Positions 1-12,063 of a DNA stretch of 43,725 nucleotides are shown one piece after another. The translations under genes and the position numbers were made by a program. The stretch is from Mycolicibacterium chubuense (GTDB lineage: Bacteria > Actinomycetota > Actinomycetes > Mycobacteriales > Mycobacteriaceae), in the NCBI RefSeq assembly GCF_001044255.1, contig NZ_JYNX01000056.1, positions 50,972-94,696 on the forward strand, read 5' to 3'. The first letter of the stretch is position 1. Each line of letters starts with the position of its first letter. The notes under the pieces are model-generated. The model had not been told where the DNA came from. It saw only the letters and a list, made by a program, of their open reading frames with translations, and searched no databases.

Positions 1-194
1 TCACCATCACCGGACCCGCCGACCGGCTCGTCGTCACCGACCGCGCCGGCCGACCCCTGACCAACCGATCCCTGGCCCGCCCACCCACCACCGACCCACC
101 CCACGTCGCACCCTGCCGCGGACCCACCGGCGAACGCGCAAACTGGTGGTGGTACGAACCGTTCGACCCCCAACGGCCACCCTCGACCAACTAG
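1..194 (+). CDS. 13E12-type DUF222/HNH endonuclease-like protein, C-terminal end only
   Basis: An open frame enters from the left edge (first full codon at 3) and stops at TAG 192-194, giving about 63 residues. The tail carries the sequence GPTGERANWWWYEPFDPQ. A GPTG...WWWY.PF.PQ ending is what I associate with the C-terminus of mycobacterial 13E12-repeat proteins, which have an N-terminal DUF222 region and an HNH endonuclease motif. The HNH motif would lie outside the window, so the nuclease function is inferred. The gene converges on the MarR gene at 226-741 with about 30 bases between stops. These genes are multicopy in mycobacteria and often mark rearrangement points. Confidence 0.72.
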   Translation, partial: TITGPADRLVVTDRAGRPLTNRSLARPPTTDPPHVAPCRGPTGERANWWWYEPFDPQRPPSTN

Positions 195-225
195 TCGCCC
201 GCGAACTCAACCGTGGCAGTCCCCG

Positions 226-741
226 CTAGAAGTCGCCGGCGCTGTGGCGCAGCGCGCGGATCGACTCGGCCAGCGCACGCGACTGCGCGTCGGTGATGCC
301 GATGTCGGCGAAGACGTCGTTGTTGAGCGTGACGGTGGCGTCCTCGACGGTGGAGCGGCCCAGATCCGTCAGCCGCACCAGCGTGGTTCGCCCGTCGGTC
401 GGATGCGGAATCCGCTCGACCAGCCCGTCGGTCTCCAGTCGGCGGATCGCGTGGGTGACGCTGGTGACGTGAACCTGCAGCCGGTCGGAAGCCTTGGTGA
501 TCGGCAGCGCGCCGGCACGGCTGAACGCCAGCAGCCGCAGCAGCTCGAAGCGCGAGAAGCTGAGGTCGTAAGGCCGCAACGCGTTCTCGACACGGGCCAG
601 CAGGATCTGATGCGCGCGCATCACCGACGTCACCGCGACCATGCCGTCGGCCACGTCGCCCCACCCGCAACGCTCCCAGTTGGCGCGCGCCGCGGCGATC
701 GGATCCCGTCGCTCCGAACGCCCGTCCGATTCGGTGGCCAC
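226..741 (-). CDS. MarR-family transcriptional regulator
   Basis: A 171-residue protein with a MarR winged-helix fold. Residues about 35-70 form the dimerisation helices. They are followed by the HTH (LPITKASDRLQVHVTSVTHA) and the wing (HPTDGRTTLVRLT), with the conserved DGR between wing strands. MarR proteins bind palindromes as dimers and usually release DNA on binding a small aromatic or lipid ligand. The start is GTG at 741, 8 bases after the aminotransferase stop, so it reads as the last gene of the five-gene minus-strand unit. In M. tuberculosis a regulator of this type (Rv0737) follows sigL-rslA, so this gene is likely its orthologue with the biosynthetic genes lying between. The target and ligand cannot be told from sequence. 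Confidence 0.88.
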   Translation of the reverse strand: MATESDGRSERRDPIAAARANWERCGWGDVADGMVAVTSVMRAHQILLARVENALRPYDLSFSRFELLRLLAFSRAGALPITKASDRLQVHVTSVTHAIRRLETDGLVERIPHPTDGRTTLVRLTDLGRSTVEDATVTLNNDVFADIGITDAQSRALAESIRALRHSAGDF

Positions 742-749
742 GCCTCTTC

Positions 750-1775
750 TTACCGCATCGCTGCTGCGACGGTGCGGATCACCGCCCGCGTCGACGCCCG
801 AGAACCGACGGTGATGCGCACGCCACCGTCGTCGTACTGTCGGACCAGCAGGCCCGAGCCGTCGAACGCATCGCTCCAGCGCACCGCGGCGCCGGGCAGG
901 TACACGAAGTTCGCCTGCGCGTCGGTGGTGTAGACGCCCATCGCGCGCAGCCTCATCTGCAGCCGCCGGCGTTCCGCCGTGATGGTCCGGATCCGTTGGC
1001 GCAGTTGATTTTCCGCTTCATAGGAGGCGACGACGGCGACCAGCGCGGGCAGCGACACCCCGAACGGCAGCTGCATCGCCCACAGTGCCCGCCCCAGCGC
1101 CGGCGCGCAGAAGCCGTAGCCGACCCGCAGCCCCGCCAGCCCATAGGCTTTCGAGAACGTGCGCACCACCACGACGTTGCCGAACCGGTGCACCAGGTCG
1201 ACGGCGTCGACGCGGTGTTCGGGAGCCAGGAACTCCACGTACGCCTCGTCGAGCAGCACCACGGTGTCGGCGGGCACCCGGCCCAGGAACCGCTCGAGGG
1301 CGCTCACCTGCTCCACCGTGCCCGTCGGGTTGTGCGGGCGGCACACCACCACCACCCGTGCGCCGACCGCGGCGTCGGCCATCGCGTCGAGGTCGTGGTG
1401 GCCGTGCCTGTCGAGCGGAACCGTCACCGGCCGCAGCCGAGCCATCCGCGCGAGGATCGGGTAGCCATCGAACGTCGGCGTCGACGTCACCAGCGTGTCG
1501 CCGGGACTGGTCAGCGCATGCAGCACCTGCATCAGCACGCCCGTCGCCCCCTCCCCGATCACCACCTGATCGGCAGCCACCCCGAGGCGGCCCGCGATGA
1601 CCGACCGAAGCCGGTGCGGCAGGAACTCCGGATAGCGGTTCAGCGAGTCCAACGAGGCGCGCACGGCGGCGCGTACCGCGGGCAGCGGTGGGAACGGACT
1701 CTCGTTGAGCGACAACGCACACGGGTTCACCGCGTCGGGCAGCACGGCCACCGCCGCGGTGTCGCGCGCGGCCAT
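750..1775 (-). CDS. HisC-like class I/II PLP-dependent aminotransferase
   Basis: A 341-residue fold-type I aminotransferase resembling histidinol-phosphate or aromatic aminotransferases. Visible landmarks are N149-P-T-G (substrate/PLP pocket), D176-E-A-Y (pyridine N contact) and S-K209-A-Y-G-L-A-G-L-R, where K209 should form the Schiff base. It would transfer an amino group to a keto compound in the cytoplasm. The frame stays open to 2144, but the ATG at 1775-1773 is chosen. It overlaps the KAS III stop by one base (TGATG), which fits translational coupling, and gives the family's normal length. Its place beside KAS III and a TPP enzyme argues for a specialised substrate rather than histidine synthesis. 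True hisC would be expected in a his operon. Confidence 0.85.
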   Translation of the reverse strand: MAARDTAAVAVLPDAVNPCALSLNESPFPPLPAVRAAVRASLDSLNRYPEFLPHRLRSVIAGRLGVAADQVVIGEGATGVLMQVLHALTSPGDTLVTSTPTFDGYPILARMARLRPVTVPLDRHGHHDLDAMADAAVGARVVVVCRPHNPTGTVEQVSALERFLGRVPADTVVLLDEAYVEFLAPEHRVDAVDLVHRFGNVVVVRTFSKAYGLAGLRVGYGFCAPALGRALWAMQLPFGVSLPALVAVVASYEAENQLRQRIRTITAERRRLQMRLRAMGVYTTDAQANFVYLPGAAVRWSDAFDGSGLLVRQYDDGGVRITVGSRASTRAVIRTVAAAMR

Positions 1776-2797
1776 CAGGGGCGTCCGCCCCACTGCACGG
1801 CGGCCGCACCGGCGAAGTCGCCGGCGTGCGCGAAGGCCGCCATCAGCACGGTGTCCCCGGCCCGCACGCGGCCGTCGGTGACCGCCCGGTCGAGGTTCAC
1901 CGGGATGCCCGCGGCGAACAGGTTGCCGCACTCGTCGAACGTATCGACGTGTCTCGACGCGGGCACCTCGAGCGCCTCCCGCCAGTTGCGCAGGAACACC
2001 CGGTTGGGCTGGTTGCTGACGAACAGGTCGATGTCGTCGGGCGCCAGGCCGAGCCGGTCGCAGACGGCGTAACTCACCTCGGGCACCTGGCGGTTGCCGC
2101 GGGCCAGGACCTTGGTGATCTTGGCCTCGGTGAAGCCGATGCATCCCTCACCGGGGCCGGCCTGCCACCACAGCCGTGGCGGATCGACCGCGATGGTCAT
2201 GTCGCCCGCGTATTCGCCGTAGGTGCGGCATTCGACGGCGAGGATCGGCGAGGCTTCCGACCGGGTGACCAGACCGACCGCCGCGCCGTCTCCGGGCACC
2301 GCGGCCTGTGCCTTGGTCCGGATGGTGGGCTGGTCGAAGATCTGCCCCGCCGCGTTCTGCACGACCGCGATCAGGGCGGTGCGGCCCTCGCCGGCGGCGA
2401 GCAGCGTGCGGGCCAGACCCAACCCCAGCACGAACGCCGCGCAGCCGCCATTGTGCAGGTCGATCACGTGCCGCGGCTTCATCCCGAGCCGGTGGGCGAT
2501 CGCCCCGCCCGCACCGTAGAACGGCATGTCGGGCAGCTGGGTGTGGGTGATCAGCACGTCGGCACCGCGGACCAGGTCCTCACCGTGGCGCTCGAGCAGT
2601 CCGGCGGCGGCGCGTTCGACCATGTCGGCCGCGGTGGTGCCGGGTGCGACGTGGTGGCGGTGCCGCGGCGCGCGGAACATCCGGTTCTCCCGCAGTTCGT
2701 CGGTCTCCGCGAACTGCGCGTAGTACTCGGCGTCGATCGGCTCGCCGGGCAGATGCACGGACACGTCTAGCAGGCTCACGGGTTCGGTTGTGGTCAC
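1775..2797 (-). CDS. Beta-ketoacyl-ACP synthase III (FabH)-like enzyme
   Basis: A 340-residue thiolase-fold protein of KAS III length. The acyl-accepting cysteine is C119 in the HNGGCAAF motif, and N292 sits in ECGNLFAAGIP, matching the GN.SAA..P block of FabH. At the place of the usual HQAN histidine the sequence reads SNQPN, so N262 replaces the catalytic His. In KAS III enzymes the His/Asn pair promotes malonyl decarboxylation. Its loss suggests acyl transfer to another nucleophile or a non-malonyl condensation. The start is GTG at 2797, 7 bases after the SRPBCC stop. It lies between a START-like protein and an aminotransferase, so it probably loads an acyl-CoA in a small biosynthetic pathway. 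The product is unknown. Confidence 0.85.
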   Translation of the reverse strand: MTTTEPVSLLDVSVHLPGEPIDAEYYAQFAETDELRENRMFRAPRHRHHVAPGTTAADMVERAAAGLLERHGEDLVRGADVLITHTQLPDMPFYGAGGAIAHRLGMKPRHVIDLHNGGCAAFVLGLGLARTLLAAGEGRTALIAVVQNAAGQIFDQPTIRTKAQAAVPGDGAAVGLVTRSEASPILAVECRTYGEYAGDMTIAVDPPRLWWQAGPGEGCIGFTEAKITKVLARGNRQVPEVSYAVCDRLGLAPDDIDLFVSNQPNRVFLRNWREALEVPASRHVDTFDECGNLFAAGIPVNLDRAVTDGRVRAGDTVLMAAFAHAGDFAGAAAVQWGGRP

Positions 2798-2804
2798 GGC
2801 GTTC

Positions 2805-3455
2805 TCATCTCATCCATGCCGGCGTGACCGGAAGGCCGTTGCGGTGCCGGTGTTCGGCGATCACCTTGAGGTTCGTCAGCTCGAGCTGGTGGCCGGGCCC
2901 GAACATGTCCCAGAAGTCACCCACCCACACCGGCCGGCCGGCGGGCGCGGTCTCCGGATAGGGGTTGTGGTCGTAGAACGGGTGGTGACAGTTCGTCCAC
3001 AGCACCACCGACCCGGGCTTGTCGAAGACGACCTGCGCGTCGACGACCCGCATCAGGTAGATCATCCACAGGTGCTTGCCCTGGTCCCACGCGCAGTGGT
3101 AGTCGACGGTCATCGCCTCGGGGTGCGCGACGGTGCGGGTGTAGATCGCGCTGCCCGGACCGCCAGGGCCCGCGCCCAGCCGGTCGTGGGCGAGCCACAG
3201 TCCGGGCTCGTCGGTCGGGGTGAAGCCGCGCAGGCTGTACGTCCACTCCTCCAGACAGCGGGTGTCGGTGAGGTAGTCGAAGAGTTCGTCGGGTGGGCAG
3301 TCGATGTAGTCGTTGACCGTGCAGTAGGTGCCGAACACCTGGTCGTGCGGGTACACCGACCGCATCCGTTCCATGATGATCGGCGTGGCCTGTTCCTTCG
3401 GGGACGTCTCGATGCGGATCAGACCGTCGATCTCGTCAAGCGTGCGCAGCGACAT
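2805..3455 (-). CDS. SRPBCC/START-like ligand-binding protein
   Basis: About 216 residues. The segment from roughly residue 45 onward (TVNDYIDCPPDELFDYLTDT) has the amphipathic first strand and helix typical of polyketide-cyclase/START-like SRPBCC domains. It is rich in Trp, His and Tyr further on (CAWDQGKHLWMIYLM, NCHHPFYDHNPYPE). Such domains hold hydrophobic ligands and may act as cyclases, aromatases or hydroxylating partners. No metal site is certain, although the HH.FYDHNPY stretch could bind one. The ATG at 3455 is preceded by AGAAGGAGT and lies inside the end of the TPP gene (20-base overlap), showing tight coupling. A longer frame to 3599 lacks this ribosome-binding site. The role is inferred from its neighbours. 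Confidence 0.75.
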   Translation of the reverse strand: MSLRTLDEIDGLIRIETSPKEQATPIIMERMRSVYPHDQVFGTYCTVNDYIDCPPDELFDYLTDTRCLEEWTYSLRGFTPTDEPGLWLAHDRLGAGPGGPGSAIYTRTVAHPEAMTVDYHCAWDQGKHLWMIYLMRVVDAQVVFDKPGSVVLWTNCHHPFYDHNPYPETAPAGRPVWVGDFWDMFGPGHQLELTNLKVIAEHRHRNGLPVTPAWMR

Positions 3456-5082
3456 GCGGGGACTCCTTCTGGGTGAGAAACGCCGCGAACGGCGGGATTT
3501 CGTCGGGCGAGCATTCAACGGCGACCACCGACGGGCCGTCGCAGGCCAGGGCGGTGCGCAGGGCGGCGGGCAGGTCCTGCACCGTGTCGACGTCGACACT
3601 GGGCAGCCCGGGGAACATCGCGGCCAGACCGGCGCCCAACCGGCTGGGTCCGAAGCGGTTCCGGCCGTCGCCGCCGGAGTAGAACAGGTGCTCGCGGGTC
3701 ACGCACATCGCGTGTGCGTGATTGTCGAAGAGCAGGAACGTGATCGGCAGCCGATAGCGCAGCGCGGTGTGGATCTCCATGCCGTGCATGTAGAAGGACC
3801 CGTCGCCGGCGATCACCACGGTGCGGCGGCCGCGGTGCGCCGCGGTGCCGACGGCCGCGCCGAAGCTGTAACCCATGCCGCCCATACCGAGGGCGACGAG
3901 GAATCTGCCGTCGGCGCGCGCGGGCAGGTGGTAGATGGCCGCCGCGCCGATGTTGCCGGCGTCGACGACGATGTCGGCGCCCGCGGGCAGGGCGGCGTCG
4001 ATCGCGTGCAGCGCGGCGCGGTACCGCACTCCGGGACCGTCGGTCGCCGGGGGTGACAGTTCGTTGAAGGGCAACGGTTTTCGTGCAGATCCGGATCCCC
4101 GACGGACAGCGGCGGCGAGCGCGGGAAGGGCGGCGCGCAGGTCATCGGCCCGGCAGTGGGTGGCCGCCACGAACGGCACGGCCGAACCGATCGACAGGGT
4201 GGGGACCGCGGCCAGCGCGTCGTCGAGGCCGGCGCGAGCCGTGACGTCCAGGCGGGTGCCGACGAGCAGGCAGGCTGCGCTGCGCCCGAGTTCGGCCGCG
4301 ACGCCGGGGTGTCCCATCACGCCGGTGACCGGGGCGCCGGGGGCGACGTCCTTCGCGTCGGGCACCGCCGCAGGGTGCGCACCGAGCGCTTCGCAGAGCA
4401 TCCGCAGTTCCGCGCGGGCGTCGTCGCGGGCGACCTGCTCACCGGCGATCACGGTCACCGGCCCGTCGGCCGTGCGCAGCGCGAGGATGATGCCGGCCAG
4501 ATCGGGAAGCGGCGCGCGCAGATGTCGGGGTGCCGGCAGCCCGACGATCGGCGGCAGGAGGGACTGCTGAATGTCTTTGGGCAGCAACAGCACTGCGGGG
4601 CCACCGGTGGCGGCCGCGGTCAATGCCTCGGCCAGTGCGCAGACGATGTCGGCGGACCGGGTCACGCGGCGGCAGTACAGCGACACCGCGGAGAACAGCG
4701 CCTCGGCGTCGAGAGCGCCGTCAGCGCCGCTGGTGTCCTGGAAGGCGCCGCGGCCGTCCAGCCGGGTCGGGGCCTGTCCGACGAGCGCCAGAACGGGCAC
4801 CCGGCGGGCCAGCGACTCGCCGAGGCCGGGGATGAGGTTCAGGCAGCCGCCGCCCGACGTGGCGGCGACCACGCCGAGCCCGGCTCCGCTGCGGCTGTAG
4901 CCGTCCGCCATTGCGGCAGCGCCGAATTCGTGTTTGGCCAGGATGATGTCGATGTCCTCGCGGCCGGCCGCGGCGTCGAAGAGGTCTTCGATGTTCGCGC
5001 CGTCGACGCCGAAGAGGTGCCGGACCCCGCGGGCGACCAACCGGTCGACGATGTCGTCGACGACGCGATACCCCTGGCCCAT
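3436..5082 (-). CDS. Thiamine-pyrophosphate-dependent enzyme (acetolactate synthase / decarboxylase-like)
   Basis: A 548-residue three-domain TPP enzyme. The PYR domain carries the catalytic glutamate E52 in AKHEFGAAAMADGYSR. A central domain follows (about 190-330). The PP domain has the cofactor signature GDGSF at 426-430, followed by D453-N454. Enzymes of this family decarboxylate 2-oxo acids and either release an aldehyde or ligate the carbanion to an acceptor. The sequence does not decide between acetolactate synthase-like, benzoylformate decarboxylase-like and other subtypes. The ATG at 5082 is preceded by GAAGGAAGGTGG, while the open frame to 5286 runs back through rslA and is rejected. 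It is the first gene of the five-gene unit and has a SigL-type promoter directly upstream (5107-5134). Confidence 0.88.
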   Translation of the reverse strand: MGQGYRVVDDIVDRLVARGVRHLFGVDGANIEDLFDAAAGREDIDIILAKHEFGAAAMADGYSRSGAGLGVVAATSGGGCLNLIPGLGESLARRVPVLALVGQAPTRLDGRGAFQDTSGADGALDAEALFSAVSLYCRRVTRSADIVCALAEALTAAATGGPAVLLLPKDIQQSLLPPIVGLPAPRHLRAPLPDLAGIILALRTADGPVTVIAGEQVARDDARAELRMLCEALGAHPAAVPDAKDVAPGAPVTGVMGHPGVAAELGRSAACLLVGTRLDVTARAGLDDALAAVPTLSIGSAVPFVAATHCRADDLRAALPALAAAVRRGSGSARKPLPFNELSPPATDGPGVRYRAALHAIDAALPAGADIVVDAGNIGAAAIYHLPARADGRFLVALGMGGMGYSFGAAVGTAAHRGRRTVVIAGDGSFYMHGMEIHTALRYRLPITFLLFDNHAHAMCVTREHLFYSGGDGRNRFGPSRLGAGLAAMFPGLPSVDVDTVQDLPAALRTALACDGPSVVAVECSPDEIPPFAAFLTQKESPHVAAHA

Positions 5083-5106
5083 GCCGCACCACCTTCCTTC
5101 ACCGGT

Positions 5107-5134
5107 GACACGACGGCAGAGGCGGTTTGGTTCA
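5107..5134 (-). promoter_or_regulatory. Putative SigL-type promoter of the TPP/KAS III cluster
   Basis: Read on the minus strand, TGAACC (5134-5129), a 16-base spacer and CGTGTC (5112-5107). The known mycobacterial SigL consensus is TGAACC-N16-18-CGTgtc, so this is a full match. The TGA of the -35 hexamer is the rslA stop codon. Transcription would start near 5100, leaving a short leader that contains the ribosome-binding site of the TPP gene at 5082. The same arrangement occurs upstream of sigL itself (6367-6394). Activity is inferred. Confidence 0.75.
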
Positions 5135-5836
5135 GAGCTGCTTTTCCAGCAGCACCTTTCCGTCGGAGACGGACACCATCTGCACGGCGGCGATGTCGTC
5201 GCGCTGGATCGGGGTGGTGCCGCTGGGCAGTGCGGTCGCGCCCGGTACGCCGAGCCACGTCGCGATCTGCGACCGGTTCCCGTCACGGGTGAGCACCACC
5301 ATGCCGAGATCCTTCGGCGCCGCGTCGTTGTTGCCCCACTGGCCGTAGGTGCACACCATGTCGACGCGGGTGCCCCAGCCGAAGTTGGTCAGCGCGATGC
5401 TCGCGTTGATCGGGGTGGGGGCCACCTTCGTCATCTCGATCATCTGGGCGGTGTTCTGGGTGTCTGGCCGATTCTGCAACCCGATGATCTGCGGCCGGGC
5501 CACCAGGAGGACGCCGACGGCCAGCACCGCGGCGGCCAATCCGATCACCGCCGAGTTCACCCACCGGGAGCGACGCCGGCGCCAGCGGACCTTGGCCAGC
5601 ACGGCGTCGCGCACCTCGGGCCGCAGCGGCGGGTCCGGTTGTTCGTCGTCGAGGGCGTTCACGTCGTCGAGGTCGAGCAGTCCCAGCAGGCTCGGCATGC
5701 CGCCGAGTTCGGCGACGGCGGTGCGGCACCGGGTGCAGCTCTCGAGGTGGCGCTCGTACTCGAGCCGCTCGTCGCTGCTCAACGCGCCCAGCACGTACGC
5801 GGCGTCCCAGGTCAGGTAGCGGTCGTCGACGGTCAT
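5132..5836 (-). CDS. rslA: Anti-sigma-L factor RslA (membrane-bound, zinc-associated)
   Basis: A 234-residue protein with a zinc anti-sigma motif H30-X3-C34-X2-C37 in the cytoplasmic N-terminus. A basic stretch (RWRRRRSRW, about 84-92) precedes one transmembrane helix (about 93-114), and the C-terminal domain of about 120 residues lies outside the membrane. In M. tuberculosis RslA holds SigL and releases it when the zinc-binding thiols are oxidised. The ATG at 5836 overlaps the sigL stop by four bases (ATGA), so the two proteins are translationally coupled. Its stop codon is part of the -35 element of the next promoter. Identity is supported by motif, topology and the map-sigL-rslA order. Confidence 0.93.
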   Translation of the reverse strand: MTVDDRYLTWDAAYVLGALSSDERLEYERHLESCTRCRTAVAELGGMPSLLGLLDLDDVNALDDEQPDPPLRPEVRDAVLAKVRWRRRRSRWVNSAVIGLAAAVLAVGVLLVARPQIIGLQNRPDTQNTAQMIEMTKVAPTPINASIALTNFGWGTRVDMVCTYGQWGNNDAAPKDLGMVVLTRDGNRSQIATWLGVPGATALPSGTTPIQRDDIAAVQMVSVSDGKVLLEKQL

Positions 5837-6348
5837 CGGGTCACCCCCATCTCCTGAAGGCCCAGTCTCAGGGCGCGCATGGCGTAGTGCAGTCGCGATT
5901 TCACGGTTCCCTCCGGAATGCCGAGGTCCGCGGAGATCTGCGCGGTCGTCCAGCCCTGGTAGTAGGCCCGCCGGACGACAGCGCGGTGTTCCTCGGACAG
6001 CTGCGCGAGCGCGGTGCCCACCAGGATGCGGTTCAGCGCCGCGTCCACCTCGTCCGACGAGGCGCGGTCGGCGACGTCGTCGGGCACCGGATCCGACGCC
6101 TCGTTGCGGAAGCGGGCGCTGCGGCGCTCGTCGATGATCATGTTGCGGGCCACGGTGAACAGCCAGGCCCGCGCCGAGCGGTCCGCGTCGGCGGTGACCT
6201 CGGGGTGGCGCCATGCCCGCAGCAGAGTCTCCTGCACGACGTCCTCGGCGCGGGCGCGGTCGCCGGTCAGCCGCAGCGCGTAGCGCCACAGCGCGGCGGC
6301 GTGTTCGTCGTAGAGCACGCGCATCATGGCGGCCTCCGGATCGTCCAT
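5833..6348 (-). CDS. sigL: ECF RNA polymerase sigma factor SigL
   Basis: A 171-residue ECF sigma factor. Region 2 spans about residues 12-75 (YALRLTGDRARAEDVVQETLLRAW, -10 recognition and core binding). Region 4 spans about 115-165, with the HTH TTAQISADLGIPEGTVKSRL for -35 recognition. It lies directly downstream of map and is coupled to rslA, the order found in M. tuberculosis (Rv0734-Rv0735-Rv0736). SigL is known there to control its own operon and genes for envelope lipids and secreted or redox-modified proteins. The ATG at 6348 follows a matching SigL-type promoter at 6367-6394. A second such promoter lies downstream of rslA. Confidence 0.93.
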   Translation of the reverse strand: MDDPEAAMMRVLYDEHAAALWRYALRLTGDRARAEDVVQETLLRAWRHPEVTADADRSARAWLFTVARNMIIDERRSARFRNEASDPVPDDVADRASSDEVDAALNRILVGTALAQLSEEHRAVVRRAYYQGWTTAQISADLGIPEGTVKSRLHYAMRALRLGLQEMGVTR

Positions 6349-6366
6349 TCCCCAACCTCCGTCTAC

Positions 6367-6394
6367 TACACGGTGTCGGCGACGGTCCGGTTCA
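6367..6394 (-). promoter_or_regulatory. Putative SigL autoregulatory promoter
   Basis: On the minus strand TGAACC (6394-6389) and CGTGTA (6372-6367) are separated by 16 bases, within the 47-base gap between the map stop and the sigL start. This fits the SigL consensus TGAACC-N16-18-CGTgtc and the known autoregulation of sigL-rslA. Transcription would begin about 12 bases upstream of the sigL ATG, so the leader is very short. Confidence 0.75.
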
Positions 6395-6395
6395 C

Positions 6396-7193
6396 TCAGA
6401 GGGTCAGAATTCTCGGTCCGTCATCGGTGACCGCGACAGTGTGCTCCCAGTGTGCGGCCCGGGAGCCGTCCGTGGTGACCACAGTCCATTCGTCGTCGAG
6501 AACACGCGTCTTGGCGGTGCCGAGGGTCAGCATCGGTTCGATCGCGAGCACCGAGCCGGGCGCCAGATGCGGCCCGCGTCCCGGCGCGCCCTCATTGGGC
6601 AGGAACGGGTCCATGTGCATCTGCCGGCCGATACCGTGCCCGCCATAACCCGCGACGATGCCGAACGCGCGGTCGTGGCGCTTCTCGGCGGCGCGGGTGC
6701 CGTTCTCGATGGCGTGGGAGACGTCGGTGAGCCGGTTGCCGGGCACCATCGCGGCGATGCCGGCCTCCATCGATTCCCGAGTGGCCGCGGAGAGCGCCTC
6801 GTCGGCGGGGATCAGCGGGCCGACACCGAACGTGACCGCGGAGTCGCCGTGCCAGCCGTCCAGGATGGCGCCGCAGTCGATCGACACCAGGTCGCCGGTG
6901 GCCAGGAGTTCGTCGGCCGACGGGATGCCGTGCACGACGCGCTCGTTGACCGAGGAGCAGATGGTGGCGGGAAAGCCGTGGTACCCGAGGAACGACGGGA
7001 TGCCGCCACCGTCGCGGATCACCGCCTCGGCGACGGCGTCGAGCTCGAGCGTCGACACTCCGGGTGCGGCGGTCTCGCGGACCGCCCGCAGCGCCGCGGC
7101 GACCAGCGCGCCCGCGGCGGCCATCGCGTCGAGCTCCCCGGCGGTGCGCTGGGGAACGACCTTGCGGCCCCGCAAGCCGGGTAGAGAGACCAT
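6396..7193 (-). CDS. map: Methionine aminopeptidase, type I
   Basis: A 265-residue metalloprotease that removes the initiator methionine from new proteins. The dimetal ligands of the pita-bread fold are visible: D in [19 protein letters not shown] (two aspartates), H in [13 protein letters not shown] in AIEPML and the final E of [10 protein letters not shown]. The start ATG at 7193 abuts the adk stop with no gap, so it is in one transcript with secY and adk. This order matches M. tuberculosis mapA (Rv0734). There is no N-terminal SH3-binding extension of the mapB kind. Confidence 0.95.
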
Positions 7194-9348: not shown

Positions 9349-10275
9349 ATGGCACGCAGTGACAACGACACCTGGGACCTCGCGTCCAGCGTCGGCGCAA
9401 CGGCCACTATGGTCGCCGCGGCGCGCGCCGTGGCGTCGCGGGCCGACGAGCCGGTGATCAGCGACCCCTTCGCCGAACCCCTGGTCCGCGCGGTGGGCGT
9501 GGACTTCTTCACCAAGCTGGCCTCCGGCGAACTCACCCCGGCCGACCTCGACGCGGGCGATGGCGGCCAGTCCCCCGTCGGCATCACCCGCTTCGCCGAC
9601 GGGATGGCCGCCCGCACCCGCTTCTTCGACGACTTCTTCGCCGACGCGGTGGCCGCCGGCGTCCGCCAGGCCGTCATCCTGGCCTCCGGCCTCGACGCCC
9701 GCGCCTACCGGCTGGACTGGCCGGCCGACATGGTGCTCTACGAGATCGACCAGCCCGAGGTCATCGCCTTCAAGCAGCAGACCCTGGCCGGGCTCGGCGC
9801 CCAGCCGACCACCGAGCTGCGCACCGTCGCGATCGATCTCCGCCAGGACTGGCCGGCCGCCCTGGCCGAGGCGGGCTTCGACCCGAGCCGCCCGAGCGCA
9901 TGGATCGCCGAGGGACTGTTCGGCTACCTGCCGCCCGACGCGCAGGACCGGCTACTGGACCAGATCGACGAGCTCAGCGCGCCGGGTAGCCGGCTGGCCG
10001 CCGAGGGCGTGCCGTCCCACCACGAAGGGGACTCCGAGGAGCTGCGGGAGAAGATGAAGGAGTCGACCGATCAGTGGCGCAGCCACGGCTTCGACCTCGA
10101 CTTCTCCGAGCTGGTTTTCCTCGGCGAGCGTGCGGAGGTCGCCGAATACCTGCGCGGGCACGGCTGGACCGCCGACGGCGCGCCCACCACCGACCTGCTG
10201 GTCCGCTACGGCCTCCCGCCGATGAACCCGGACGAGGGCTTCGCCGACGTCGTCTACGTCAGCGCGGCGAAGTAG
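9349..10275 (+). CDS. TIGR00027-type SAM-dependent methyltransferase (copy 1 of 4)
   Basis: A 308-residue protein of the mycobacterial class I methyltransferase family (LCMT/TIGR00027, formerly DUF methyltransferases; the M. tuberculosis relatives here are Rv0726c and Rv0731c). Family landmarks are [20 protein letters not shown] at the N-terminus, [10 protein letters not shown], the SAM-binding [17 protein letters not shown], the acidic EIDQPEVI and [18 protein letters not shown]. The substrate is unknown. The ATG at 9349 has GAGAGGAG upstream. It is the first of four tandem plus-strand paralogues with a 7-base gap to the next. A His-Glu-rich insertion ([13 protein letters not shown]) after AAEGVP is specific to this copy. 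Confidence 0.92.
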
Positions 10276-10282
10276 CCCCGCC

Positions 10283-11188
10283 GTGGCGCGCGCCGAAGGG
10301 GACCGGTGGGATCTGGCGTCCAGTGTCGGGTCGACGGCGACGATGGTCGCCGCGGCGCGGGCCGTCGCCAGCGTGGAACCCGACCCGCTGATCGACGACC
10401 CGTACGCCGCTCCCCTGGTGCGCGCGGTCGGCATCGACTTCTTCACCAAGGTGGTCGACGGGACGCTCACGTTCGCCGACTCCGACGACTCCGGGGCAGC
10501 GCGGCTGATGACCGACGTGATGGCCGTGCGGACCCGGTTCTTCGACGACTTCTTCCTCGACGCCGCCGCGGCCGGGGTCCGGCAGGCGGTCATCCTGGCC
10601 TCGGGGCTGGACTCACGGGCGTACCGGCTGCCCTGGCCGGACGGCACGACGGTGTTCGAGATCGACCAGCCTCAGGTCCTCGAATTCAAGGCCGCCGCCC
10701 TGGCCGACCTCGGCGCCGCGCCGTCGGCGCACCACCGGGCCGTGGCCGTGGACCTGCGCGACGACTGGCCGGCCGCTCTGCGCGCCCACGGTTTCGACGA
10801 GACCGTCCCGACCGCGTGGAGCGCCGAGGGTCTGCTGGTCTACCTGCCACCGGACGCACAGGACCGCCTGTTCGACCACATCACCGCACTCTCGGCGCCC
10901 GGCAGCCGGCTGGCCACCGAATACCATCCCGACGCCGGCGCCTCCATCGGTGAGCGAGCCCGCGCGCTGAGCGCGCAGTGGTCCGATCACGGGTTCGACG
11001 TGAACGTGGCCGATCTGTTCTATCCCGGGGAGCGCACTCCCCCGACCGACTACCTGTCCGGGCAGGGCTGGCAGGTGAGCACGCGGACCCGCCCCGAGGT
11101 CTTCGCCGGGTACGGGCGCACGTTCGGCACCGGCGAGGCGCTGGCACCGCTGCGGAACTCGCTGGCGCTCACGGCGGTGAAGTCGTGA
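10283..11188 (+). CDS. TIGR00027-type SAM-dependent methyltransferase (copy 2 of 4)
   Basis: A 301-residue paralogue with the same order of motifs: [46 protein letters not shown] (SAM pocket), [11 protein letters not shown] and [18 protein letters not shown]. The start is GTG at 10283, seven bases after copy 1. Its stop overlaps the GTG of copy 3 by four bases, indicating coupled translation. The final segment is less like the other copies, and it carries WSAEG where the others have WIAEG or WLAEG. The substrate is not known. Confidence 0.92.
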
Positions 11189-12063
11189 GCCGCACCGACG
11201 GCGACACCTGGGATCTCGCCTCCAGCGTCGGGGCGACCGCCACCTCCGTCGCGGCGTCGCGGGCGTTCGCGAGCCGCGGCCCCCGCCCGCTGATCGACGA
11301 CCCCTACGCCGACCTGCTGGTCGAGGCCGTCGGCGTCCCCCACTTCGTCGAGGTGGCCCGCGGGAAGACCGACATCCCCGAGGAGATGCGCGAGCACATC
11401 GCCGTACGCACCCGGTTCTTCGACGACGTGCTGACCGACGCGGCCGACGCCGGCGTCCGGCAGGTCGTGATCCTGGCCTCCGGCCTGGACACCCGGGCCT
11501 ACCGACTGCCCTGGCCGGCAGGCACATGCGTGTTCGAACTCGATCAGCCCAGCGTTATCGAGTTCAAGACCCGGGTGCTCGCAGACGCCGGGGTGACGCC
11601 CACGGCGACCCGGATTGCCGTCGGCGTCGACCTGCGCGACGACTGGCCCACAGCGTTGCAGGACAACGGTTTCGACGCCGATGCGCCCACCGCGTGGATC
11701 GCCGAGGGCCTGCTGATCTACCTGCCGCCCGAGGCCCAGGACCGGCTGCTGGACCACGTCAGTGCCCTGTCCGCGCCGGGCAGCGTGCTGGCCACCGAGC
11801 ACATGGACCCGAAAGCGCTCACCGGCGAGTGGGCGAAGCAGCTCAGCGCCCTGAGCCGCCGCCACGGCAGCGACATCGACCTGTCCTCGCTGTTCTACAC
11901 CGGCCCGCGCACCGCGGCGGGCGACCATCTGCGTGAGCTCGGCTGGCAGGTGACCGTGCTGCCCAACACCCAGGCGTACGCGGCCCACGGTTTCGACCCG
12001 CCGACCGACTCGCTGATCGCGATGGTCGGCGATTCCGGATACCTGTCAGCTCACCGGGAGTAG
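11185..12063 (+). CDS. TIGR00027-type SAM-dependent methyltransferase (copy 3 of 4)
   Basis: A 292-residue paralogue, the shortest of the four. It lacks the longer loop after the first helix and reads [19 protein letters not shown] where the others have an FFT-containing stretch. The SAM motif [28 protein letters not shown] and [18 protein letters not shown] are intact. The start is GTG at 11185 in a GTGA overlap with copy 2. The frame remains open back to 10978, but this lies inside copy 2 and the family N-terminus ([18 protein letters not shown]) fixes the start. It sits 3 bases from copy 4. Confidence 0.92.

Follow-up and report, generated by a model that had tools for sequence, protein, structure and literature searches.

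A conserved, probable SigL promoter precedes a predicted operon resembling carbazole biosynthesis genes beside sigL-rslA in Mycolicibacterium chubuense and its relatives

We examined a stretch of 43,725 nucleotides (nt) from Mycolicibacterium chubuense (contig NZ_JYNX01000056.1; the whole stretch is called the window below) that carries sigL, which encodes an extracytoplasmic function (ECF) sigma factor, and rslA, which encodes its anti-sigma factor. Downstream of rslA and on the same strand are genes for a thiamine diphosphate (ThDP)-dependent enzyme (the thiamine pyrophosphate, or TPP, gene), a homologue of the carbazole synthase CqsB2, an enzyme resembling 3-ketoacyl-acyl carrier protein synthase III (KAS III), an aminotransferase, and a regulator of the MarR family. 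Just ahead of the first of these five genes lies the element at 5107-5134. To judge from its sequence and its conservation, it is very probably a SigL-dependent promoter that drives all five genes as an operon. The features of the locus are as follows.

6367 to 6394, minus strand: sigL autopromoter, TGAACC-N16-CGTGTA; such a site precedes sigL in 38/40 loci that lack the enzyme cluster
5833 to 6348, minus strand: sigL, ECF sigma factor; its conserved H48 and D54 correspond to H54 and D60 of the solved SigL
5132 to 5836, minus strand: rslA, anti-sigma factor with an HxxxCxxC zinc motif (HLESCTRC; zf-HC2 above cut-off)
5129 to 5134, minus strand: −35 element TGAACC, whose TGA is also the rslA stop codon; TGAAC[CT] in 103/103 loci near sigL
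5113 to 5128, minus strand: 16-nt spacer; its length is kept in 103/103 loci near sigL while its sequence drifts
5107 to 5112, minus strand: −10 element CGTGTC, followed by AC, compared below with the −10 consensus of PMC6372665
5083 to 5098, minus strand: predicted 16-nt 5' leader with a putative AGGAAGG ribosome-binding site
3436 to 5082, minus strand: ThDP (TPP)-dependent carboligase-like enzyme, first gene of the operon; Pfam TPP_enzyme_N/C, closest solved chains CsmA and BbmA
2805 to 3455, minus strand: CqsB2-like carbazole-synthase homologue without a Pfam or NCBIfam match; shares 20 nt with the TPP gene
1775 to 2797, minus strand: KAS III-like enzyme, putatively in the role of CqsB1; Pfam ACP_syn_III and _C, Cys kept, His replaced by Asn
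750 to 1775, minus strand: aminotransferase of the HisC/phenylalanine-aminotransferase kind, putatively in the role of CqsB7; closest solved chain 4r2n ("putative phenylalanine aminotransferase", E 8.8e-61)
226 to 741, minus strand: MarR-family regulator, last gene of the operon, the positional counterpart of Rv0737 as described in the available part of PMC13002591

On the minus strand, positions 5134-5107 read TGAACC-N16-CGTGTC, and the −35 begins 52 nt 5' of the ATG at 5082. A sequence-only reading of this DNA had described this pattern before the gene at 3436-5082 and a nearly identical one (TGAACC-N16-CGTGTA) before sigL, and both are present, the second at 6394-6367. SigL promoters have a −35 of TGAACC at a spacing of 16-18 nt, which agrees with the sigL autopromoters seen here. 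For the −10, the available text of PMC6372665 gives an experimentally revised consensus of CG-TGN(C/A)AG, and the window fits it at all defined positions except −7, where it has C for G. The older consensus string, on which the earlier claim of a match at every position was based, was not found in a search of the full-text literature. If the T of CGT is numbered −12, as for P-sigL in that part of PMC6372665, transcription would start at about 5098.

Matches of this quality are rare. TGAACC-N15..19-CGTGT occurs twice in the window (shuffles expect 0.08) and 12 times in the whole genome, versus 2 for the reversed pattern; with the spacing fixed at N16, the counts are 8 and 1. These 8 sites lie before sigL, before the TPP gene, before other plausible genes (4), and inside open reading frames (2). 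The four other genes (at L002, L003, L008, and L009) encode a cupredoxin-like lipoprotein, an MmpL protein, and two small proteins that look secreted by eye. At the first two of these sites, as in the window, the −35 begins with a TGA that also ends an upstream open reading frame.

To follow the element in relatives, we used 297 genomes of the same genus, which contain homologues of the TPP gene in 202 cases (E ≤ 1e-60) and of SigL in 254 (E ≤ 1e-45). Among the listed places of the TPP gene in these genomes, 110 were examined (30, L013-L042, and 80 more), plus further loci. A locus was called near on the basis of where its TPP and SigL hits lie, or because the retrieved locus itself contains rslA or sigL; the promoter was not a criterion. 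This gave 103 near loci, 90 from 89 genomes and 13 from records such as those of Mycolicibacterium frederiksbergense, M. sphagni, and Mycobacterium celatum. (The G102 locus is counted twice, as L142 and L244; L255 and L258, from the split TPP gene of G231, are excluded; and a 45% identity filter removed nothing.) Near-duplicate records exist, such as L043 and L032, which share a promoter, and L048 and L220, which look alike, hence the 103 loci hold 87 distinct 26-mers. Distances are measured not from annotated starts but from the position of residue 1 of the window protein, as extrapolated from the first TPP residue in the alignment.

TGAAC[CT]-N16-CGT[GA] lies 31-92 nt before the aligned TPP start in all 103 near loci, as compared with 17 matches in 20,600 dinucleotide shuffles of the same upstream regions. 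Other spacings are rare (N11 three times and N24 twice). The sequence-only reading had proposed asking whether the hexamers are conserved while the spacer drifts, and across the near loci they are: the −35 has a mean pairwise identity of 0.95, the spacer 0.40, and the flanks 0.37. The hexamers belonged to the search pattern, which inflates their values. The four bases past the pattern, which were not searched for, have a mean pairwise identity of 0.72. Also outside the pattern, −8 is A in 71/87 distinct sites, which fits the measured −10 consensus in the available part of PMC6372665, and −7 is C in 63/87, which departs from it. In four near loci (L028, L037, L059, and L060), the TPP gene is 0.8-2.7 kb from rslA and the site has moved with the TPP gene. 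The cluster and the site are both present in a divergent genome of the genus, G050, whose SigL is 57-60% identical. At L256 (G235), the cluster seems to be decaying: the TPP match is limited to residues 3-206, the KAS gene is partial, and a CqsB2 homologue was not detected, while the SigL site is retained. At L255/L258, the TPP gene beside sigL is split with an aminotransferase-like fragment between the halves, by rearrangement or assembly error. We also considered an operator-like inverted repeat within the spacer. It looked suggestive in single loci and was rejected, as 51 thinned spacers gave no covariation at any fixed center (largest z 1.61) and only a slight excess in the longest stem (2.92 versus 2.68, standard deviation 0.10).

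Where the cluster is not linked to sigL, the site is largely missing. Thirty TPP homologues are either distant from sigL, on another contig or far along the same one, or belong to genomes in which no sigL was detected; in none of them does the site occur within 28-100 nt. The 28 loci L259-L286 (from G009, G192, G018, and others) hold modules far from sigL, in several clades; TPP, CqsB2-like, and KAS genes are all present in 26 of these. We found no MarR in the stretches read there, and no SigL-type site within 28-100 nt of the TPP start. One clade of such modules (G192, G153, G245, G254, G095, and G042) has a common upstream GTAACGTA box, and another (G109, G087, G213, and G063) has a different conserved upstream sequence. 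Conversely, in loci that have sigL and no enzyme cluster (a set of 40 and a set of 8, to which the caveat about near-duplicates also applies), MarR follows rslA directly in 39/40 and 8/8. These loci retain the site before sigL (38/40 and 8/8), and none of them (40/40 and 8/8) has such a site downstream of rslA, between rslA and MarR.

Outside the genus, a sample of the family has the TPP homologue in 13 of 31 genera, the home genus included (E ≤ 1e-100). We read 26 clusters there, of which 15 are linked to sigL (present inside the locus or no more than about 4 kb away). The site is present in 13 of these 15, at −32 to −116 (L288, L289, L290, L293, L294, L295, L297, L299, L302, L306, L311, L315, and L316; in L316, the linked sigL is on the opposite strand). 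Another linked cluster, L298, has the site with one mismatch in the −10. In the unlinked or sigL-less clusters, the site is absent from 10 of 11. Within the genus that we label g24, the sigL-bearing L295 keeps the element, L298 has it with the mismatch, and in the sigL-less L300 it has decayed. The sequence-only reading had named loss of the hexamers in cluster-keeping relatives as a refuting outcome. Such loss does occur where the cluster is unlinked or sigL is missing, and in two linked clusters outside the genus (L296 and L298), versus none of the 103 linked loci of the same genus. On the tree of TPP proteins, the in-genus near label changes between linked and unlinked 7 times by parsimony, and at least 2 changes are forced by well-supported branches (by a quick method and with long branches). 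We infer that linkage and promoter are ancestral and that the cluster-less loci are losses. As the spacing is conserved exactly and the site is lost without linkage to sigL, SigL control of the operon looks old and selected, and the earlier suggestion of a SigL-type promoter for the TPP/KAS III cluster is strengthened by both observations.

The sigma factor itself is of the SigL kind: it matches the solved SigL 6dv9 (E 7.4e-76) with the His and Asp aligned, and it scores above the cut-off for NCBIfam NF007227. According to the available text of PMC6372665, His54 and Asp60 of SigL read −12 and −11. That the site is tied to sigL linkage also speaks for SigL as its reader.

The genes downstream of the site are packed as expected for an operon, with spacings of −20, +7, −1, and +8 nt, and 49 nt separate rslA from the TPP gene. 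No terminator-like site was found on the minus strand in 1-6500. The last gene is at the end of the cluster here and directly after rslA in the cluster-less loci. Its likeness to Rv0737 is one of family and position. According to PMC13002591 (2026), Rv0737 directly follows sigL-rslA in M. tuberculosis, and both it and its M. smegmatis homologue Ms_1492 bind the promoter region of sigL-rslA in vitro and regulate it positively. As both arrangements place MarR behind a SigL-type promoter, it would close a positive loop. Among 68 distinct sigL promoters, information content upstream of the −35 is low, and we propose no conserved MarR operator there. No MarR homologue was found beside 20 clusters read outside the genus.

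The five genes had been called uncharacterised, which no longer describes them well: the fifth encodes a MarR at the position of Rv0737, and the other four fit the enzyme set for carbazole formation, CqsB3/B2/B1/B7 (pathway reviewed in PMC7466098). The best case is the product of 2805-3455, a homologue of CqsB2, a carbazole synthase of solved structure (E 5.8e-46, 39-45% identity); it has the Bet v1-like fold expected of CqsB2/NzsI. Of the catalytic residues proposed for CqsB2 (Glu105, Tyr144, Tyr172, His206, and Glu209), the last four are identical by eye (Y133, Y161, H189, and E192) and Glu105 aligns with D91; all five columns are invariant among 28 aligned sequences. The ThDP enzyme has the catalytic Glu of KHE in 96/96 loci read. 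Its domains, this residue, and its carboligase relatives match a counterpart of CqsB3/NzsH, an assignment made by domain and role rather than by CqsB3/NzsH sequence. Similarly, the KAS III-like enzyme is placed in the CqsB1/NzsJ role by its fold and its catalytic Cys (57/57 loci read), rather than by CqsB1 sequence; its usual catalytic His is Asn in 48/48 (Asn kept in 23/23).

The most substantial alternative for the promoter is that read-through from the sigL autopromoter accounts for most transcription of the operon, with the second site a booster at most. The lack of a terminator-like site and the short gap after rslA would permit this; in cluster-less loci, MarR follows rslA with no such promoter between; and L296 (G374) keeps the cluster after losing the site. 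However, read-through alone predicts drift, and the site is present with exact spacing in all of the near loci, even with the TPP gene 0.8-2.7 kb from rslA. We consider read-through unlikely as the main mode, although the two modes are compatible. Another ECF sigma factor, such as SigE, SigH, or a relative, might read the site instead, as SigL, SigE, and SigH sites are alike (network study PMC4821874, in the portion available) and as similar strings occur without sigL linkage (L292, L158, and L251). This seems very improbable, because the element matches the autopromoter of the linked sigL, because it follows sigL linkage (103/103 versus 0/30 within 28-100 nt), and because most of the sigL-less genomes read either lack it or have a decayed form. 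We can give almost no credence to the idea that conservation is a by-product of coding or stop-codon constraint where rslA ends. The −35 in the window does contain the rslA stop codon (the TGA is its first three bases), as the sequence-only reading said, and that reading took the overlap as a sign that the −35 was probably kept by selection. Yet the overlap occurs in only 3 of the 88 near-sigL loci with a readable rslA (G000, G054, and G202), so it is incidental and does not explain the conservation. Counted from the first base of the stop, the −35 instead begins 17 nt further on in 44/88 loci, and 16-18 nt further on in 53/88; also, the site persists far from rslA and is missing where the cluster is gone, which already contradicts this idea. 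Some observations do weigh against a SigL-dependent promoter. L296 is the sole sigL-linked cluster read in which no site can be recognized between rslA and the TPP gene, perhaps because read-through has taken over from the promoter there, and the sigL-less L292 has a weaker TGAACT...CGTA before a TPP gene with an internal stop. Two of the 30 far loci match further out, L158 at −122 (sigL on another contig) and L251 at −127 (no sigL found), and these may be genuine unlinked sites because linked sites outside the genus reach −32 to −116. Fisher's exact test on 103/0 versus 2/28 gives P ~ 1e-26, which is a guide only, as related loci are taken as independent: the near loci are related by descent, the far TPP copies are partly in separate clades and are not fully independent controls, and "far" in some genomes means that sigL is on a separate contig of a draft assembly. 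Across whole genomes, the number of TGAACC-N16-CGTGT matches does not distinguish 26 sigL-bearing genomes (136 versus 34 for reversed controls) from 22 sigL-less ones (48 versus 13; 5 rechecked at E 1e-30, the others resting on E 1e-45) beyond the reversed control, and this independence from sigL also counts in favor of another ECF reader. The preferred base at −7 is G, and the window has C. Finally, there are related TPP-CqsB2-KAS modules that lack the site, and the chemistry therefore has no inherent link to SigL.

For the enzymes, we think that carbazole-type chemistry is probable, and less secure than the promoter. They could instead make something else, such as a benzenoid or naphthalenoid from phenylpyruvate, or an acyloin lipid. 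This is the less likely outcome of the two and a serious one. The aminotransferase is nearest to a putative phenylalanine aminotransferase; the CqsB2 homologue has only moderate identity to CqsB2 and shares more (60%) with an uncharacterised homologue from another family (G614); Asp stands in place of CqsB2 Glu105; the KAS III-like enzyme is without the usual His; and for CsmA and BbmA, the closest solved relatives of the TPP enzyme, we found no paper. On the other hand, genes for all four roles in making the carbazole skeleton are present and contiguous, and four of the five proposed catalytic residues of CqsB2 are identical.

With a SigL-dependent promoter at 5107-5134 and carbazole-type enzymes, we propose the following scheme. 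RslA from M. tuberculosis releases zinc and forms a disulfide upon oxidation in vitro (PMC2877774, available part). RslA would free SigL, and SigL-RNA polymerase would then transcribe the sigL operon and, from the second site, the genes for the ThDP enzyme, the CqsB2-like cyclase, the KAS III-like enzyme, the aminotransferase, and MarR. The four enzymes would probably make a carbazole-type aromatic o-quinone or catechol by the CqsB7-B3-B1-B2 route, with an aromatic 2-oxo acid, pyruvate, and an acyl chain as the proposed substrates, and MarR would probably feed back on sigL-rslA. SigL probably turns on carbazole-like chemistry because an exactly spaced site is kept beside the regulator and because the neighboring genes look like ring-making machinery. 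More tentatively, and with some doubt on our part, SigL-RslA of the mycobacterial family might be ancestrally a redox-triggered switch that was dedicated to a radical-scavenging carbazole-type metabolite (o-quinone/catechol); MarR would sense this product or its quinone and feed back on sigL. The lineages in which rslA and MarR are adjacent, as reported for M. tuberculosis, would then have kept the switch and lost its first output at this locus.

Mycobacterial SigL has so far been described via a few envelope-lipid and secreted-protein genes. A site in all of the linked loci examined in the genus, and in 13/15 elsewhere, points to an old main target of SigL in an operon that matches carbazole biosynthesis. 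This would predict a mycobacterial natural product, and it gives a handle on what SigL, RslA, and MarR sense and control. In the open-access literature, as covered by titles and the starts of abstracts (most subscription papers being outside this scope), no report describes the cluster in mycobacteria or a link to SigL, and "mycobac" does not occur in the carbazole review (PMC7466098).

Elsewhere in the window, at 9349-12063, there are three consecutive similar genes on the plus strand, with starts near 9349, 10283, and 11185. By eye, their products resemble S-adenosylmethionine-dependent methyltransferases.

Among known systems, the SigL-RslA regulon of M. tuberculosis (P-sigL, P-pks10, and P-Rv1139c) is alike in its autoregulated sigL-rslA, in its −10 type, in its anti-sigma factor with a zinc motif, and in having a MarR (Rv0737) adjoining the locus. 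It differs in its targets, which in the parts of the sources available are polyketide synthase, secreted protein, and membrane protein genes; the present locus has its second site before a carbazole-type enzyme set. The mycobacterial modules L259-L286 share the core genes, mostly in the same order, and differ in that no MarR and no nearby SigL-type site were found and in their other upstream sequences. The carquinostatin (CqsB7/B3/B1/B2) and neocarazostatin (NzsH/J/I) systems of Streptomyces differ in that the five genes here are without a prenyltransferase, a cytochrome P450, an acyl carrier protein, and a classical KAS III, that the operon has a SigL-type promoter at its 5' end and, in Mycobacterium, a terminal MarR, and that identity to CqsB2 is only 39-45%. 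What they have in common with this operon is that homologues of an aminotransferase, a ThDP enzyme, a KAS III-like enzyme, and a carbazole synthase are found together.
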